NCBI RefSeq assembly: GCF_000979455.1
Contig: NZ_JJOY01000005.1
Span: 62,001 to 126,000, forward strand
Source of the DNA: Methanosarcina sp. 2.H.T.1A.6
Lineage (GTDB): Archaea; Halobacteriota; Methanosarcinia; Methanosarcinales; Methanosarcinaceae
Length of the DNA: 64,000 nt
Reading direction: 5' to 3'
In this document: positions 22,245 through 32,723 of the stretch, piece after piece
Layout of the letters: each line of letters begins with the position of its first letter
How positions within the stretch are numbered: position 1 is the first letter of the stretch
Notes under the pieces: model-generated
The model's database searches: none
What the model saw: only the letters and a program-made list of their open reading frames with translations
Told to the model about the DNA's origin: nothing
Translations under genes and position numbers: made by a program

Positions 22245-22657
22245 GGTCTTATCCTCGGCACTTTTTTGATCAGTTTTATACTTGAGGCTTTAAAGTTTTG
22301 CAGCTGCGCGCCGGACGAACATTCTGATATCTTTAAATAATTTTCTGCTGCCTGACGACTCGCGGCTTTTCCATCCTTTCACTTCTTTCGTCTACATTGA
22401 CTCATTTGTGGACTCCTATTTTTCAATATACTCCTGCCATATCTGTTAATCTTAACCCATTCCCACATATTCTCTTGCAGGAAAATCCGTTGGAACTACT
22501 CTGAATCATTCGGTCTCTTATTTTTTTACCATATCGAAAAGTTTTAATCTAATTGGTTGGTCATGCATAAATATCTCATATAAATGTCTCATGTTTTTAT
22601 ATGAGGTGGTATATGAGATGGGTGTTAAAAAGGAAGAGAATTATAGAGGTAATATTA

Positions 22658-22981
22658 ATGAAAAAAATGTTTAAGATCATTGCAATGCTCCTTGTAATTG
22701 CTACTGTTGTCTTTGCAGCCGGCTGTGCTGACAAGGCCGCTGAACCAGCAGAAGAAGGAGCTTCAGAAGAAGTGACTGATGAACTCCCAGTAGCAGAAGA
22801 TGGAAATTCAACTGAAAACGAAGTTATGGCTGACGTCCCAGCTGACGAAAACGTCACTGACCTCAACGCAACTGACCTCAACGCAACTGACGACGCTGAC
22901 CTCAACGCAACTGACGACGCTGACCTCAACGCAACTGAAGACGCTGACGACAACGCAACTGAAGAAGAAATCACTGAATAA
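22658..22981 (+). CDS. Small acidic lipoprotein with NAT sequon repeats
   Basis: A 107-residue protein. Residues 1-23 are a lipoprotein signal ending in the lipobox FAAGC. The mature part is extremely acidic, and its C-terminal third repeats DLNATD / DADLNAT about five times, each an N-x-T glycosylation sequon. ATG 22658 has GAGGT 7 bases upstream. The frame remains open to 22601, but those residues look like leader. The signal-peptide DNA is almost identical to that of the ABC-transporter lipoprotein 1 kb downstream. It is probably a surface-anchored, glycosylated tether. No family is recognised. Confidence 0.75.
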   Translation: MKKMFKIIAMLLVIATVVFAAGCADKAAEPAEEGASEEVTDELPVAEDGNSTENEVMADVPADENVTDLNATDLNATDDADLNATDDADLNATEDADDNATEEEITE

Positions 22982-26443: not shown

Positions 26444-26667
26444 TAAGATTCTGTATCTCATTATAAATTAATGATATATCCATTGTGATAAACAGAAACC
26501 TTACCTTTTTCATTCTGATTTTTTTGTTTCGAGCGGAATAAACTTTAGGCGCTACACCTATTTTATATTCCTGAACTTTCTCCCTTTTACAACGGTTTTA
26601 ATTTATACTCATTATTTTTATGGAATGATCTCCCTTATTTACCACTATTGTTACTGAGGCCCAAAAA

Positions 26668-27570
26668 ATGAAAGAAACCCTGAAAGCCTACATCGACCTC
26701 ACTCGTGCTCATTTCCTTCCTGCCTGGCCCCTTATTTTTTGCTCCGGGTTGGTGCTTGCTTTTGCTAATTACGGCGGTTTTTCCTGGGCACTAATTATCA
26801 AGGCTGCCCTGATAGGCTTGCTGGGGTTCGAAGCCGGCTTCGTGCTCAACGATTACGTGGACAGAAAAAGAGACCGGCTTGATGTGGAGAATACCCTTAC
26901 AAAGTACTGGAGACCTTTTAAAGAGAGACCCCTTCCCTCAGGGAAGATCACTTCAAAAAATGCCTTCTGGCTGTTTCTCCTGCTTGCAGGTGTTACTTCA
27001 GCCCTGATCTTCACCCTTCCCTATCCGAATTCACTCTATGTCTTTGCAATCATGCTGTACTCTTATGGCATTGAGGCTTTTTACCAGGTGAAAAAAAGAG
27101 ACCAGAAGCTCCCTATTGCCCAGCTTCTCGGAAGGACTGACTTCACCCTTTTTCCGGCAGCAGGTTATCTCTGCTACGGGCAGCCGGATATGACCATGCT
27201 GCTCTATATGGTTTTTTTCTATCCCTGGACGATGGCTCATCTGGGATTGAACGACTTTATCGACCTGGAAAATGACCGGGCAAGAGGCATGAATTCGATA
27301 GCCGTCCTTTATGGTGCAAAAGGGACTATGTACTGGGTTACAGGCTTTACGCTCCTGCATTTCTTTGCAGCTATCTTCTTCCTCAGGGAGCTCGGGCCTA
27401 TTGCTCACTACGGCTTTCTTGCAGGTTTTGCACTCCTTGCAGGGGCAAACCTTTATCTATGGAAAGAAAAAAGTCCAGGTGCGGGTTTGAGAATACTGCC
27501 TGTTTACCACGGAACTCTGGTAATCTATGCAGTTTCGATCATTCTTGATTTCTTATATTATATTTCGTGA
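26668..27570 (+). CDS. UbiA-family prenyltransferase
   Basis: A 300-residue integral membrane enzyme with about eight to nine TM helices. The two aspartate-rich motifs that bind Mg-prenyl diphosphate are present: NDYVDRKRD (about residues 61-69) and NDFIDLENDR (about 195-204), the latter followed by GMNSIAVLYG. UbiA enzymes prenylate quinone precursors, heme, chlorophyll or archaeal lipid glycerol phosphates, and the acceptor is not evident. It converges with the deiminase-like gene across 6 bases. GAGG precedes the ATG. Confidence 0.85.
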   Translation: MKETLKAYIDLTRAHFLPAWPLIFCSGLVLAFANYGGFSWALIIKAALIGLLGFEAGFVLNDYVDRKRDRLDVENTLTKYWRPFKERPLPSGKITSKNAFWLFLLLAGVTSALIFTLPYPNSLYVFAIMLYSYGIEAFYQVKKRDQKLPIAQLLGRTDFTLFPAAGYLCYGQPDMTMLLYMVFFYPWTMAHLGLNDFIDLENDRARGMNSIAVLYGAKGTMYWVTGFTLLHFFAAIFFLRELGPIAHYGFLAGFALLAGANLYLWKEKSPGAGLRILPVYHGTLVIYAVSIILDFLYYIS

Positions 27571-27576
27571 AATCCG

Positions 27577-28590
27577 TCATGCCTTTTCCACGGCTTTCAC
27601 TCTCTTTTTTAGCTTAATCTTATTTTTTCTCCTGCAGAGTCTCAGGGTATGGCAGCGAAGGCTTCCCCCTCCCGCAAGCAGGGCTTCAGGGTGGAAAGGA
27701 ATTATCTCAACACCTTCTCCTGAAAGGCTTTTCCTTGTGTCCTGATCAAGTGCAATGTCATAGTGGAAGATGGTCCCGCTTTCAAGGGGGACAAAAGAAC
27801 AGGCAAGGCGGCTTTGCTCGGAGTCCGAAACAGGTATGATCTCCATGTCTTTCTCCTGCATGAACTCTTTAAAATCGATTCTTTCTCTGGAGTCTTTCGT
27901 AAACAGGCAGGTCTCTTCAAAGGCTGGAAGGTAAGCAAGGGCAAGGTCTTCTCTTATTCGATTGAAGACCGTATCAGGGTGCATGTAGCGCCTGGCTTTA
28001 GGAATGCGGGCGTAGATGACTTCATCAAACTCGCTCAGGATATTCAAAATAAATTCCCGGATAAAGGGATAGGTATGCCTTTCCGTATCAGCAACAAAAA
28101 TCGTCTCTTTTGAGAGCAGGAGACAGCCTTCAAAAAATCCTTCTTCCCCGTTGAACTCATTGAGTATGGGAATTCCCAGGTTGTTCAGAGCTTCCTTTAC
28201 GACAACCTCTTCATTTTCCCTTGCAGGAGGACGCATTTTTGAAAGAATTGCGCCTTTTCTGGAAATAACCGCAGTGTCATGCAGGAAGGTAATATTTGGC
28301 ATCCTGTTTATCAGGTCTCTTTTTTCTGTCACATGGTCTGCAAGCTCATAGACCCTGACTCCATTTGATTCCAGCAGGGCCTGGTAACGCCTGTGTTCTT
28401 CAATATATCCGGAAATATCAGGGACCTCATCGTAAAGCCAGTGTTTATAGTTCGATTCGTTGACCAGGGCGAGTTCATCTCCCGGAGTATGCACAAGTAC
28501 ACTTTTCAGCTTCCCCAGGTCATCACAGCCGTAAGCAATACTCGATCCGGTTTTTTTCACCCCATTCAATTTTTCTATCCGGCAACCCAT
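27577..28590 (-). CDS. Arginine deiminase/amidinotransferase-superfamily enzyme
   Basis: A 337-residue guanidine-modifying fold. It opens LKSVLVHTPGDEL (ADI strand 1), then FLHDTAVIS (counterpart of FTRDxxV), EEGFFEGCLLL (catalytic Glu region; ADI normally has EGGD, here the Asp is not conserved), YMHPDTVF (catalytic H-x-D) and GGGSLRCHT (nucleophilic Cys near the C-terminus). It probably hydrolyses or transfers the guanidine/amidine group of an arginine-like substrate. ATG 28590 is chosen because GGAGG lies 8 bases upstream; the longer ATG at 28605 would contain this site. It is last in a three-gene run after a radical SAM enzyme and an EgtD-like methyltransferase. Confidence 0.75.
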   Translation of the reverse strand: MGCRIEKLNGVKKTGSSIAYGCDDLGKLKSVLVHTPGDELALVNESNYKHWLYDEVPDISGYIEEHRRYQALLESNGVRVYELADHVTEKRDLINRMPNITFLHDTAVISRKGAILSKMRPPARENEEVVVKEALNNLGIPILNEFNGEEGFFEGCLLLSKETIFVADTERHTYPFIREFILNILSEFDEVIYARIPKARRYMHPDTVFNRIREDLALAYLPAFEETCLFTKDSRERIDFKEFMQEKDMEIIPVSDSEQSRLACSFVPLESGTIFHYDIALDQDTRKSLSGEGVEIIPFHPEALLAGGGSLRCHTLRLCRRKNKIKLKKRVKAVEKA

Positions 28591-28623
28591 GTCCAGAACC
28601 TCCATTCTAATTTATTGTCATTC

Positions 28624-29655
28624 TCATATGCGTTTTTTTGCAAGGATCATCACATTTCTTCTGTCTTCACTCAGGAAAGCCTTGAGAACCTCAAATCCGC
28701 AGATGTTTAGAAAAGCGATAATCTGGTCATATGTATATTTATATGTAAAACCCATGCGTATGACGTCTCCCTCCCTGAAGCCTATGGTCTCTGGCCCGAT
28801 CCTGATCTCAGCGTCCTTCAGGATATTCAGGCTCTTCCGGGTCCTATACAGTGCCCCTATTTTGGAATCCACATGTGCAAGCAAAAGCTCGAAGTCGAAA
28901 TCCTCAGGAGCCATTCCGTACTGAAGCAGGGGGTACATATTGAAGAGCGCATTTTCTCTTGAGGCATATGTGCCCAGGATAGATTTCCTTGAAGACTGTG
29001 CCTCTTCACCTGAACCCTGTGAAGGAAGAAGGTTGGCATCGAAGAAGAATAGGTCTCCCTGCTCAAGGTTTTCATAGATCAGCTGAAGAATGAATTCAGG
29101 CTCATAATTGCAAAACGTGTTTCCCAGAATGCAAAACAAAACCGGGGGTCGCCAGTGTTTTTTAAGGAGAGGCATGTCCTCGATAAAGCCGACTATCCCT
29201 TTCTTTTCTACAGGCAGGTCCTTTACCTTTTCAAGGGCGATGTCTACAAACTGGCTGTTTATATCGACGGGATAATAGTGTGTTGATACTTTTTCGAAGG
29301 CTTGTTTTTCAGCCCGTTTTTTCTTTATTAGCTCTTCTAGAAGAATTCTTTCTTTTTCCCCACTCCCTACTCCCACACTCACAAGGTTCATGCAGGCAGG
29401 AATGAATCTGACGATCGAAGCAACATTCTCCTCAAGCATTATCTTGAGCTGCCGGGCAACAGGAAACGTTTTGGATTCATCCAGCTTCAGCCAGTTATTT
29501 GCCCCTCCCGCGCCTGTATACAGAAGATAATCGGGCAGTTCGAACTTCTTCAGGCTCTCATACAGCTTCTCTTCGGGGTCTTTTTCGCTGATAGTTACGA
29601 TCTTTTCTTCTTTCTCCGGAGCCTGTTCTAATCTCGCTTTTCCTGTGCTGTCCAA
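28624..29655 (-). CDS. EgtD-like (histidine-specific) SAM-dependent methyltransferase
   Basis: A 343-residue protein resembling the methyltransferase family that includes EgtD, which trimethylates histidine in ergothioneine synthesis. Visible elements are VSVGVGSGEKE (SAM motif I, about residues 90-100), THYYPVDINSQFVDIAL, FCILGNTFCNYEPE (counterpart of the EgtD PGSTIGNF segment), LFFFDANLL and the C-terminal MGFTYKYTYDQI. No EgtB (sulfoxide synthase) gene is nearby, so ergothioneine is unlikely. The start is TTG 29655. Eighteen bases separate it from a longer-start version of the deiminase-like gene, so they are probably cotranscribed. Confidence 0.7.
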   Translation of the reverse strand: MDSTGKARLEQAPEKEEKIVTISEKDPEEKLYESLKKFELPDYLLYTGAGGANNWLKLDESKTFPVARQLKIMLEENVASIVRFIPACMNLVSVGVGSGEKERILLEELIKKKRAEKQAFEKVSTHYYPVDINSQFVDIALEKVKDLPVEKKGIVGFIEDMPLLKKHWRPPVLFCILGNTFCNYEPEFILQLIYENLEQGDLFFFDANLLPSQGSGEEAQSSRKSILGTYASRENALFNMYPLLQYGMAPEDFDFELLLAHVDSKIGALYRTRKSLNILKDAEIRIGPETIGFREGDVIRMGFTYKYTYDQIIAFLNICGFEVLKAFLSEDRRNVMILAKKRI

Positions 29656-29751
29656 CTTCTCACTTCTCCCAGGGTCATTTCATAATATATATGCCCCGCA
29701 CTTAATAAATTTATTTACTATCAATTATATGGACCGCTTTTTATTGTTTTA

Positions 29752-30918
29752 TCATTCTTTGAAGCACTGCTTACATTCCATCTTCAGGGCTTCGAGTGGG
29801 CCGGCTCCGTTATTTATCCCGACGCTATAAGCGTATCCGCGGCAGCCTATGCATTCTTCCATGTGTTCACAGTTCCCGCATCTGCCTTCCAGCACTTTGT
29901 CGATATTCCTTACATATTTGAAGAGATCGGAGTCATAGATCTCCCTCAGGCTCATCCTGTTTATGTTATAGGGATATTCCCCGTTAACCCTTAGTGCGGG
30001 ATGTTCGTCCAGTTTTGTAGGTGCACAGGGCCTGACATTTCCTTCTATATTGATGTACAGGCTGTAAAGGTGTTGAAGGCAGCCGCTTGCAGTGATCGGG
30101 GTATAGGGCAGCCAGTCGTATCCGTAATATTTCCTGTCTATTTCCAGCAATTTTAACTTGTACTCTTTTATCTCGTCGGCTGTGAGCAGTTTATCTTCAA
30201 GTTCATCATTTGCCCTGCCTGTTGGAGTGAGAATCTCCATGTTAGGAAAGATATTGTTCTGTCTGCAGAAGTGCCAGATCTCCTCAATCTCTTCAAGGTT
30301 CATTTTATTGCTCACGAAAGAGACTCCCAGGCGGAGTTTCCCAGGCTCGGCAGGGTTTGAAAAGCCTGCTTTTATCAGATTTTCAAGTCCGGTTTTTATA
30401 TCCTCGAAAGCCCCTTCCCTGCCTGCCAGATAGTTCTGGACCTCAGGCCTGAGGGAATCGAGCTTTCCCATAATAGAGGCGTTGTGTTCATACAGAAACC
30501 CTGCAAGTTCCTCTGTCATCAAAACAGTATTTGAAAAAAGCATCGGAATGATCCCAAGGGAATCAATGCAGGCAATCAGTTCTCTAAAGTTAGGGTAAAG
30601 AGTCGGTTCTCCTCCCCCTATCACCACCACAGACCTGATCCCCAGTTCTTTTGCTTCGGATATTATGCGTTTAAGGACATTAAAATCAGCTATTTTTACT
30701 GAATCCTCTCCACTTTGTGCATAGCAGTAGCGACAGTGGAGGTTACATGATGTGTTTGTTTCAAGCCGTATGGCCAGAAGCCTGTTTGAGTTCCTCGCTT
30801 CATAGGCTTCCTGTGCCCCGTACATGTATCCCCTCAGGACAGGGGGTGGTGAAAACAGGCTCAACGCATCGAAATTTTTTGATTCTTTCCCCAACATATT
30901 AAAAGGTATATATATCAC
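29752..30918 (-). CDS. Radical SAM/SPASM-type enzyme
   Basis: A 388-residue protein. The SAM-cleaving [4Fe-4S] motif is C58-x3-C62-x2-C65 (SCNLHCRYCYAQ), followed by the SAM-binding GGGEPTLYP. The C-terminus carries extra cysteines (SGCLQHLY, VRPCAPTK, GRCGNCEHMEECIGCRGYAY, then CKQC) like the auxiliary-cluster SPASM/twitch domains of peptide-modifying and cofactor-building enzymes. No precursor peptide is seen next to it. It is first in a run with the EgtD-like methyltransferase (96-base gap) and the deiminase-like enzyme. The start is GTG 30918 or ATG 30897; GGGTG upstream fits the ATG loosely. Confidence 0.85.
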   Translation of the reverse strand: MIYIPFNMLGKESKNFDALSLFSPPPVLRGYMYGAQEAYEARNSNRLLAIRLETNTSCNLHCRYCYAQSGEDSVKIADFNVLKRIISEAKELGIRSVVVIGGGEPTLYPNFRELIACIDSLGIIPMLFSNTVLMTEELAGFLYEHNASIMGKLDSLRPEVQNYLAGREGAFEDIKTGLENLIKAGFSNPAEPGKLRLGVSFVSNKMNLEEIEEIWHFCRQNNIFPNMEILTPTGRANDELEDKLLTADEIKEYKLKLLEIDRKYYGYDWLPYTPITASGCLQHLYSLYINIEGNVRPCAPTKLDEHPALRVNGEYPYNINRMSLREIYDSDLFKYVRNIDKVLEGRCGNCEHMEECIGCRGYAYSVGINNGAGPLEALKMECKQCFKE

Positions 30919-31121
30919 CCTTTATCAAGTTACAAGAAACTAAGTGATATTTTCGAGATAAGATGGTTTATTTTGTTCTGATGTTTTTGATTTTCTATTT
31001 CTTATTTGTTTTAGTTTTGTTTCAATGTTTATCCCCTTTTTTCATTGAAATTGCCTATTTTTTCTACTGATTTTTTCTACTGATTTTTTTCTAATATACT
31101 CTGTTCTCAAGTTTCTTATAG

Positions 31122-32090
<969 letters not shown>

Positions 32091-32259
32091 GCTTCATTTT
32101 CTTAAATTAGGGAATCCGGATACAGGAAAATGAAGCTCTTGATTTTTCCCATTCCATATTTCTGAGCCTGAAAAGATTAGGGGTGAGAAATAAGAGCTGC
32201 ATTCCTGAAATCATGTCCCTTTTGGAAGTTATATCCAAAAAAATCTTGAGTTTGAGTAT

Positions 32260-32592
32260 TTATTTTTCATCTCCTGCGCAGCTGCAGGAAATGTTGCCTT
32301 TCAGGATCTCTTTCCAGTCGCCTATCACGTCGTGGGTCCAGCAGTCGTCGGCTCCTGCGGCTTCCCTCATGACCAGGGCAAAGATGTATGAGAGTTCCTT
32401 GACCGTAGCTCCTGCTTCGAGGGCACCCTTGAAGTGCTTCAGGACGCAGGGCTTTGACCTGCCTTTGATGGAGAGGGCAAAGCAGATGAACTGGTAGGTC
32501 TTTTCATCGATCATCCGTTTTTCGGCATAAAGCTGGTCAATTTCGTCCAGCTTCTGGGTGAATTCAGGGAAAAATTCTTCCAGCATTTTCAT
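32260..32592 (-). CDS. Carboxymuconolactone decarboxylase (AhpD-like) family protein
   Basis: A 110-residue all-alpha protein. YQFICFALSIKGRSKPCVLKHFKGALEAGAT is the core CMD motif, but the usual C-x2-C-x3-H redox pair has only one cysteine (PCVLKHF). Extra cysteines occur near the end (DDCWTH and SCSCAGDEK). AhpD-type relatives are peroxidase adaptors, and the missing Cys argues for another role. GGAG lies 8 bases before the ATG. Confidence 0.8.
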   Translation of the reverse strand: MKMLEEFFPEFTQKLDEIDQLYAEKRMIDEKTYQFICFALSIKGRSKPCVLKHFKGALEAGATVKELSYIFALVMREAAGADDCWTHDVIGDWKEILKGNISCSCAGDEK

Positions 32593-32723
32593 TTATACGG
32601 CTCCTTTTTTACCTGCAAACTTGCAGGTTCACACTGTTAAGACGGTACACATATTATGATATTTTTTTATATTTAAGTATTAGTTCAAAATCTTTTGAAA
32701 TCATTATCTCTTTAATCGTTCTT

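Follow-up and report, generated by a model that had tools for sequence, protein, structure and literature searches.

The question raised by the locus described here is what three adjacent genes of Methanosarcina sp. 2.H.T.1A.6, encoding respectively a radical S-adenosylmethionine (SAM) enzyme with a SPASM domain, a methyltransferase resembling the histidine-specific EgtD and a protein resembling arginine deiminase (ADI), might be doing together. They lie on contig NZ_JJOY01000005.1, within a stretch of 64,000 nucleotides (the window) to which coordinates refer unless another contig is named. The answer reached has two parts of rather different firmness. Judged by comparison among genomes, the three genes form a conserved, horizontally transferable unit in which every enzyme retains its catalytic residues, and it is very nearly certain that this unit is a functional one; more tentatively, it may be an operon for the synthesis of an arginine-family metabolite that is N-methylated and radically modified. 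The features concerned are the following, the run as a whole lying within 27577–30918 on the minus strand in the order radical SAM, methyltransferase, ADI-like.

29752..30897, minus strand: radical SAM/SPASM enzyme of 381 residues, ATG start at 30897 (Pfam PF04055 and PF13186)
28624..29655, minus strand: putative EgtD-fold amino-acid N-methyltransferase (PF10017) of 343 residues, TTG start with GGGAGAAGTGAG 5'
27577..28590, minus strand: ADI-fold enzyme of guanidine-modifying type, 337 residues, ATG start at 28590 with a GGAGG site 5'
30922..30945, minus strand: conserved cis-element ACTTAGTTTCTT-N5-TTGATAA, 5' of the radical SAM gene; candidate operator, promoter or leader

The original prediction for this DNA, made by a model from the letters of the window, had described three same-strand genes with gaps of 96 and about 33 bases and had assigned them to these same families. 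Positions, order and spacing agree with those found here (96 bases between the first two genes, 33 between the second and third), and the family calls are borne out by Pfam matches that all exceed the curated cut-offs (Radical_SAM 70.8 bits, SPASM 28, Methyltransf_33 85.2, ADI 80.7).

That prediction had also proposed looking for co-occurrence of the genes across Methanosarcinales. Among 150 genomes of that order, 22, belonging to Methanosarcina and one sister genus, have all three genes side by side on the same strand and in the same order, one of these copies being decayed and one carrying a frameshift; decayed copies excepted, near relatives in these genomes are 67–93% identical. At two archaeal outliers (L057, L059) the first two genes overlap or stand 1 base apart. 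The trio is evidently under strong purifying selection, with a ratio of nonsynonymous to synonymous substitution rates (dN/dS) between the window and its relatives of 0.03–0.14, calculated only where synonymous sites are unsaturated. None of the three genes is present in two other Methanosarcina genomes (G057, G147). In the wider phylum (a sample of 393 genomes) the radical SAM protein occurs in 2 of 136 genera. Where the trio is incomplete, its parts tend, on the two cases available, toward joint loss: G115, counted among the 22, combines an intact radical SAM gene with a broken methyltransferase and a 68-residue remnant of the ADI-like protein, and G073, additional to the 22, has the methyltransferase alone, intact, with no DNA left of either the ADI-like gene or the radical SAM gene and the element upstream of it. 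In this last genome (contig L120, 7285–7292 and 8448–8460) the absence of both flanking genes is near-exact, leaving the middle gene without the upstream element.

Adjacency within one genus proves little by itself, as the wider surroundings (UbiA, SplB-like and CMD genes) are equally syntenic across Methanosarcina, and it is this that might lend some colour to the idea of three unrelated enzymes lying together there by chance. Since Methanosarcina synteny extends to neighbouring genes too, the strongest evidence for a single pathway comes from a bacterium. A scan of some 85,000 species genomes with exact short peptide patterns, which more divergent trios may escape, found the ADI-like protein in 18 Methanosarcinaceae-type loci and at one locus in the Phycisphaerae, where the bacterium MAG49 (contig L061) carries an intact trio in the order seen in the window. 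Its radical SAM and methyltransferase genes overlap and are followed after 12 bases by the ADI-like gene, with identities to the window of 63%, 42% and 55% respectively. This copy is not archaeal contamination, because its G+C content of 0.606 matches the 0.602 of its own stretch (that of the window trio is 0.45) and its neighbours are bacterial. With the same order retained, the first two genes overlapping and different genes around them, the planctomycete trio contradicts chance adjacency, which is hardly credible. On this evidence the trio has crossed between archaea and planctomycetes, a single sequence giving no direction of transfer. No other trio was found in 392 Planctomycetota genomes; twelve distant ADI-like relatives occur in that phylum, and in none of the 11 loci fetched does a methyltransferase or radical SAM partner adjoin. 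Viral contigs yielded no ADI-like relative and one partial radical SAM match (26%), and plasmids only ADI-family matches of 26–28% and no methyltransferase.

What the unit makes has to be read from its enzymes. For the EgtD-fold METHYLTRANSFERASE the AlphaFold model has a predicted local distance difference test score (pLDDT) of 84.6, and it superimposes on EgtD (PDB 4uy6) with a Z score of 33.2 over 298 aligned residues and a root-mean-square deviation of 2.8, the next fold family reaching Z 17.7. Residues were mapped by hhalign profile alignment, which puts Y39, N166 and Y206 of EgtD at the invariant Y46, N183 and Y230, and finds Y56 replaced by F64, E282 by G302 and S284 by T304 in every trio member. 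In EgtD, Asn166 binds the α-amino group of the substrate and Tyr56, Tyr206 and Ser284 bind its carboxylate (PMC8593015). Against the EgtD equivalog model TIGR03438 the window protein scores 57.6 bits where the cut-off is 290.9, and all the trio genomes fall below it. Because the Glu282 with which EgtD touches the imidazole of histidine is Gly in every member, histidine is a less likely substrate; the EgtD variant M252V/E282A (PDB 4pip) is one that we take to accept tryptophan. The protein would accordingly be an amino-acid N-methyltransferase that is probably not histidine-specific, and methylation of some other amino acid seems rather more than an even bet.

A pathway that does start from histidine, making an ergothioneine- or ovothiol-like thiol or betaine in place of the EanA/EanB operon of sister genera, deserves consideration at this point. 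The methyltransferase would then give hercynine, and the radical SAM enzyme or the Cys of the ADI-like enzyme would functionalise C2 of the imidazole. Its attractions are the EgtD fold itself, the membership in the ADI superfamily of 2-nitroimidazole nitrohydrolase, which hydrolyses the imidazole C2 position, and the presence of a true EgtD/EanA above cut-off in 28 genomes of sister Methanosarcinaceae genera, with EanA and the trio together in none of the 150 Methanosarcinales genomes. That exclusivity is however a clade-level pattern, which may reflect one or two events only and is at most suggestive of replacement; the substitution of Glu282 and the low TIGR03438 score count directly against histidine; and EgtB, which the original prediction had found to be missing, is indeed absent from the vicinity and nowhere exceeds the curated cut-off genome-wide (three weak partial matches only). 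A histidine-derived product is thus quite unlikely.

In the five EanA loci examined (L121–L125, in genomes G144, G093, G121, G019 and G037) a 420-residue double-rhodanese protein resembling EanB, EanA and a SufS-like desulfurase occur together, joined at no fewer than four of these loci by a SufE-like protein, and the EanA signature GETIHTENSHKYT keeps Glu282 and Ser284 where it was read. These are apparently anaerobic ergothioneine operons with their own sulfur-supply enzymes. Adjacent EanA and EanB genes in methanogens, including Methanococcoides vulcani, have been noted earlier (PMC7278568), in a paper that does not mention linkage to SufS or SufE. The trio itself includes no rhodanese, an unlinked EanB elsewhere in the genome not having been searched for.

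For the ADI-like protein, sequence alignment places D166, E224, H278, D280 and C406 of Pseudomonas ADI at the invariant D105, E154, H204, D206 and C313, and N160, R185 and R243, which we take to be the residues that bind the α-carboxylate of arginine, at the invariant N99, R124 and R171. With these in place it is plausible that the chemistry of the family, attack of a Cys on a guanidine-type carbon, is retained. The altered EGGD motif of the original prediction proves in all ADI-like members to be EGC, two residues having been deleted and the Asp with them, and the position of ADI R401 is occupied by Gly308; against the ArcA model TIGR01078 the protein scores 92 bits (cut-off 489). A structure prediction of the active site, suggested at the outset, succeeded only in placing the fold, the top structural matches of a low-confidence model (pLDDT 58.8) being ADI and arginine dihydrolases at Z 13.

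The radical SAM enzyme has its CX3CX2C motif at C51, C55 and C58 (numbered from ATG 30897) and a seven-Cys SPASM motif, C273-X17-C291-X48-C340-X2-C343-X5-C349-X2-C352-X22-C375; all of these are invariant in the alignments, the planctomycete protein included. Since Methanosarcina barkeri AhbD has a further Cys, C223 (PMC10452713), for which there is no equivalent here, the auxiliary cluster I (AuxI) of the window enzyme seems to have three Cys ligands. The best NCBIfam scores are to NirJ2, a tungsten-cofactor maturase and AhbD. Together with a Cys pattern like the SPASM motif of AhbD, they might suggest a tetrapyrrole or cofactor pathway, in which an AhbD- or NirJ2-like enzyme modified a molecule of heme, F430 or other cofactor type, its two partners supplying an amino-acid side chain. 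The scores are however only about one fifth of the curated cut-offs (84.6 bits for AhbD and 97.2 for NirJ2, against 500), so that by this comparison the protein is neither of the two; no tetrapyrrole gene was recognised adjoining the trio; and the trio is missing from sister genera that we would expect to make both heme and F430. A role in cofactor synthesis is consequently improbable.

A second possibility arises from the same enzyme, namely that what the trio modifies is some ribosomal peptide or protein residue, in the manner of ribosomally synthesised and post-translationally modified peptides (RiPPs) or of Arg or His tailoring, the precursor being encoded elsewhere. The radical SAM enzyme would crosslink or epimerise, the ADI-like enzyme convert peptidyl-Arg and the methyltransferase cap the N-terminus. 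SPASM enzymes are common as peptide maturases, and the best sequence match in the PDB is to SkfB; an AuxI with three Cys ligands is also found in the peptide maturase CteB, and in CteB-like enzymes the open AuxI site is involved in substrate binding (PMC10452713). Comparison of archaeal and planctomycete loci found, in keeping with the precursor-less locus originally described, no conserved small open reading frame (ORF) either in the gaps or 5' of the operon, and between the planctomycete genes there is no space for one, although an unlinked precursor is possible. No RiPP recognition element domain was recognised, in the course of searches that were not dedicated to it, and free amino acids would suit both the pocket of EgtD type and the conserved residues with which the ADI-like enzyme is predicted to bind a carboxylate. 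Peptide modification is on this balance unlikely, and the product is probably a free small molecule.

Putting these arguments together, we tentatively favour a trio that builds a small metabolite on an α-amino acid other than histidine, likely arginine or something derived from it, while inferring the substrate class, the reactions and the order of the steps from the families and conserved residues. In such a scheme the methyltransferase would use SAM to methylate the α-amino group of the amino acid, possibly through to the betaine; Cys313 of the ADI-like enzyme would attack a guanidine- or amidine-type carbon to give a thiouronium-type intermediate, which would either be hydrolysed, giving a ureido or citrulline-like group, or hand its amidino group to an acceptor; and the radical SAM enzyme would activate a C–H bond on the same skeleton. 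Because its AuxI apparently has only three Cys ligands, one iron of that cluster could be left to bind the substrate. Presumably the dedicated upstream element would control expression.

Several points weigh against this proposal. With Gly at the Glu282 position, the methyltransferase pocket does not obviously favour the cationic side chain of arginine, and a neutral citrulline-like intermediate would suit it equally well. Lacking the Asp of EGGD and a counterpart of Arg401, the ADI-like enzyme should not be assumed to carry out plain arginine deimination, and so weak a model does not secure the geometry of its active site. Peptides or proteins are frequent substrates of radical SAM/SPASM enzymes, and the closest NCBIfam models of this one, NirJ2 and AhbD, are tetrapyrrole enzymes. 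The original prediction's wider suggestion of an amino acid (histidine or arginine, for example), a small peptide or a cofactor stands in its amino-acid part, histidine having become less likely and the arginine family being a tentative choice of substrate class. Its statement that no described pathway has this trio fits the open-access literature, where nothing matching was found for the trio, for an archaeal EgtD, for trimethylarginine or for a Methanosarcina arginine deiminase, a description in subscription papers or preprints being possible. A bolder reading, in which a new class of anaerobic metabolite, for instance a betaine of arginine or citrulline type with a radical modification, takes the place of EanA/EanB in Methanosarcina and has moved as a cassette of three genes between archaea and a planctomycete, is doubtful. 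If correct, the scheme favoured here would extend the EgtD family to a specificity other than histidine, assign a new reaction to a divergent enzyme of ADI type and add a radical SAM reaction whose substrate may be a small molecule. Methanogen small-molecule chemistry beyond the cofactors of methanogenesis is mostly unexplored; since the pathway is compact, with three genes, and the genus has genetically tractable model strains, discovery of the product is directly testable.

As to where the genes begin, the original prediction had started the radical SAM protein at GTG 30918; relatives favour ATG 30897 as most likely, the matching ATG being used by most homologues, and the ATG at 28590 is likewise that used by homologues of the ADI-like protein. 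At three loci (L024 in the 12504 region, L026, L028) no ATG can be recognised at the usual start of the radical SAM gene, where there is an in-frame TAA or simply no ATG, and the upstream element is more distant. In several Methanosarcina genomes an in-frame TAG occurs at one fixed radical SAM position, about codon 80 from the ATG (L034:8467, L036:7176, L038:7283; also L049, L055, L056), the protein being conserved past it, and L032 and L035 have one at codon 11 of the methyltransferase gene; these are probably pyrrolysine codons or sites of readthrough.

The DNA 5' of the radical SAM gene cannot be aligned among relatives except for the 24 bp element, a candidate operator, promoter or leader found at nearly all archaeal loci. 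Its distance from the start is 24 bases in most Methanosarcina and larger in the others; it was not found at the outlier L057 and is absent upstream of the planctomycete trio. The genome contains one exact copy, and no regulon sharing the element was detected, matches with 3 mismatches being at background (apart from the true site there are 7, and the reversed pattern gives 6). Rfam gave no match in 26500–32700.

Convergent with the trio is a UbiA-family prenyltransferase gene (26668–27570; NCBIfam PRK12871, 590 bits). A second copy, some 59–65% identical, adjoins the first at seven related loci (L025, L026, L028, L031, L035, L040, L042). A link to methanophenazine through UbiA was dropped, because the gene is convergent, some relatives have two copies of it, and at three loci (L032, L033, L043) it was not seen next to the trio. 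Past it, on the opposite strand and 1.1–3.9 kb from the trio, lies an amino-acid ABC transporter, so that the absence of a transporter claimed originally holds for the trio's own strand only. Since it is present in only 10 of the 20 fetched neighbourhoods of relatives, the transporter is probably unrelated to the trio. A small lipoprotein-like ORF (22601–22981), ending in repeated DLNATDDA units, adjoins its genes.

Each enzyme can be set against its closest known systems. Like ArcA (TIGR01078) and the arginine dihydrolases ArgZ/AgrE, the ADI-like enzyme has the fold, the catalytic Cys, His and Glu, the two guanidine-binding Asp and the equivalents of N160, R185 and R243; it differs in its shortened length (337 residues against about 410), in EGC for EGGD, in Gly for Arg401 and in scoring 92 bits where the ArcA cut-off is 489. 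The radical SAM enzyme shares with AhbD the CX3CX2C motif and the pattern C-X17-C ... CX2CX5CX2C ... C, and differs from the Methanosarcina barkeri enzyme in having no Cys at the position of C223 (PMC10452713). With EgtD/EanA (PF10017, TIGR03438; PDB 4PIO, 4UY6) the methyltransferase shares the complete fold, including the substrate-recognition domain, the amino-group ligand Asn166 and the carboxylate ligand Tyr206, with Ser284 present as Thr; Glu282 is Gly and Tyr56 is Phe, the score is far under the EgtD cut-off, and neither EgtB nor EanB adjoins as a partner. The EanB-EanA operon of methylotrophic methanogens resembles the trio in placing a PF10017 methyltransferase inside an anaerobic operon of Methanosarcinaceae, but that methyltransferase bears the true EgtD signature, and its partners are rhodanese, SufS-like and SufE-like proteins rather than a radical SAM and an ADI-like enzyme.

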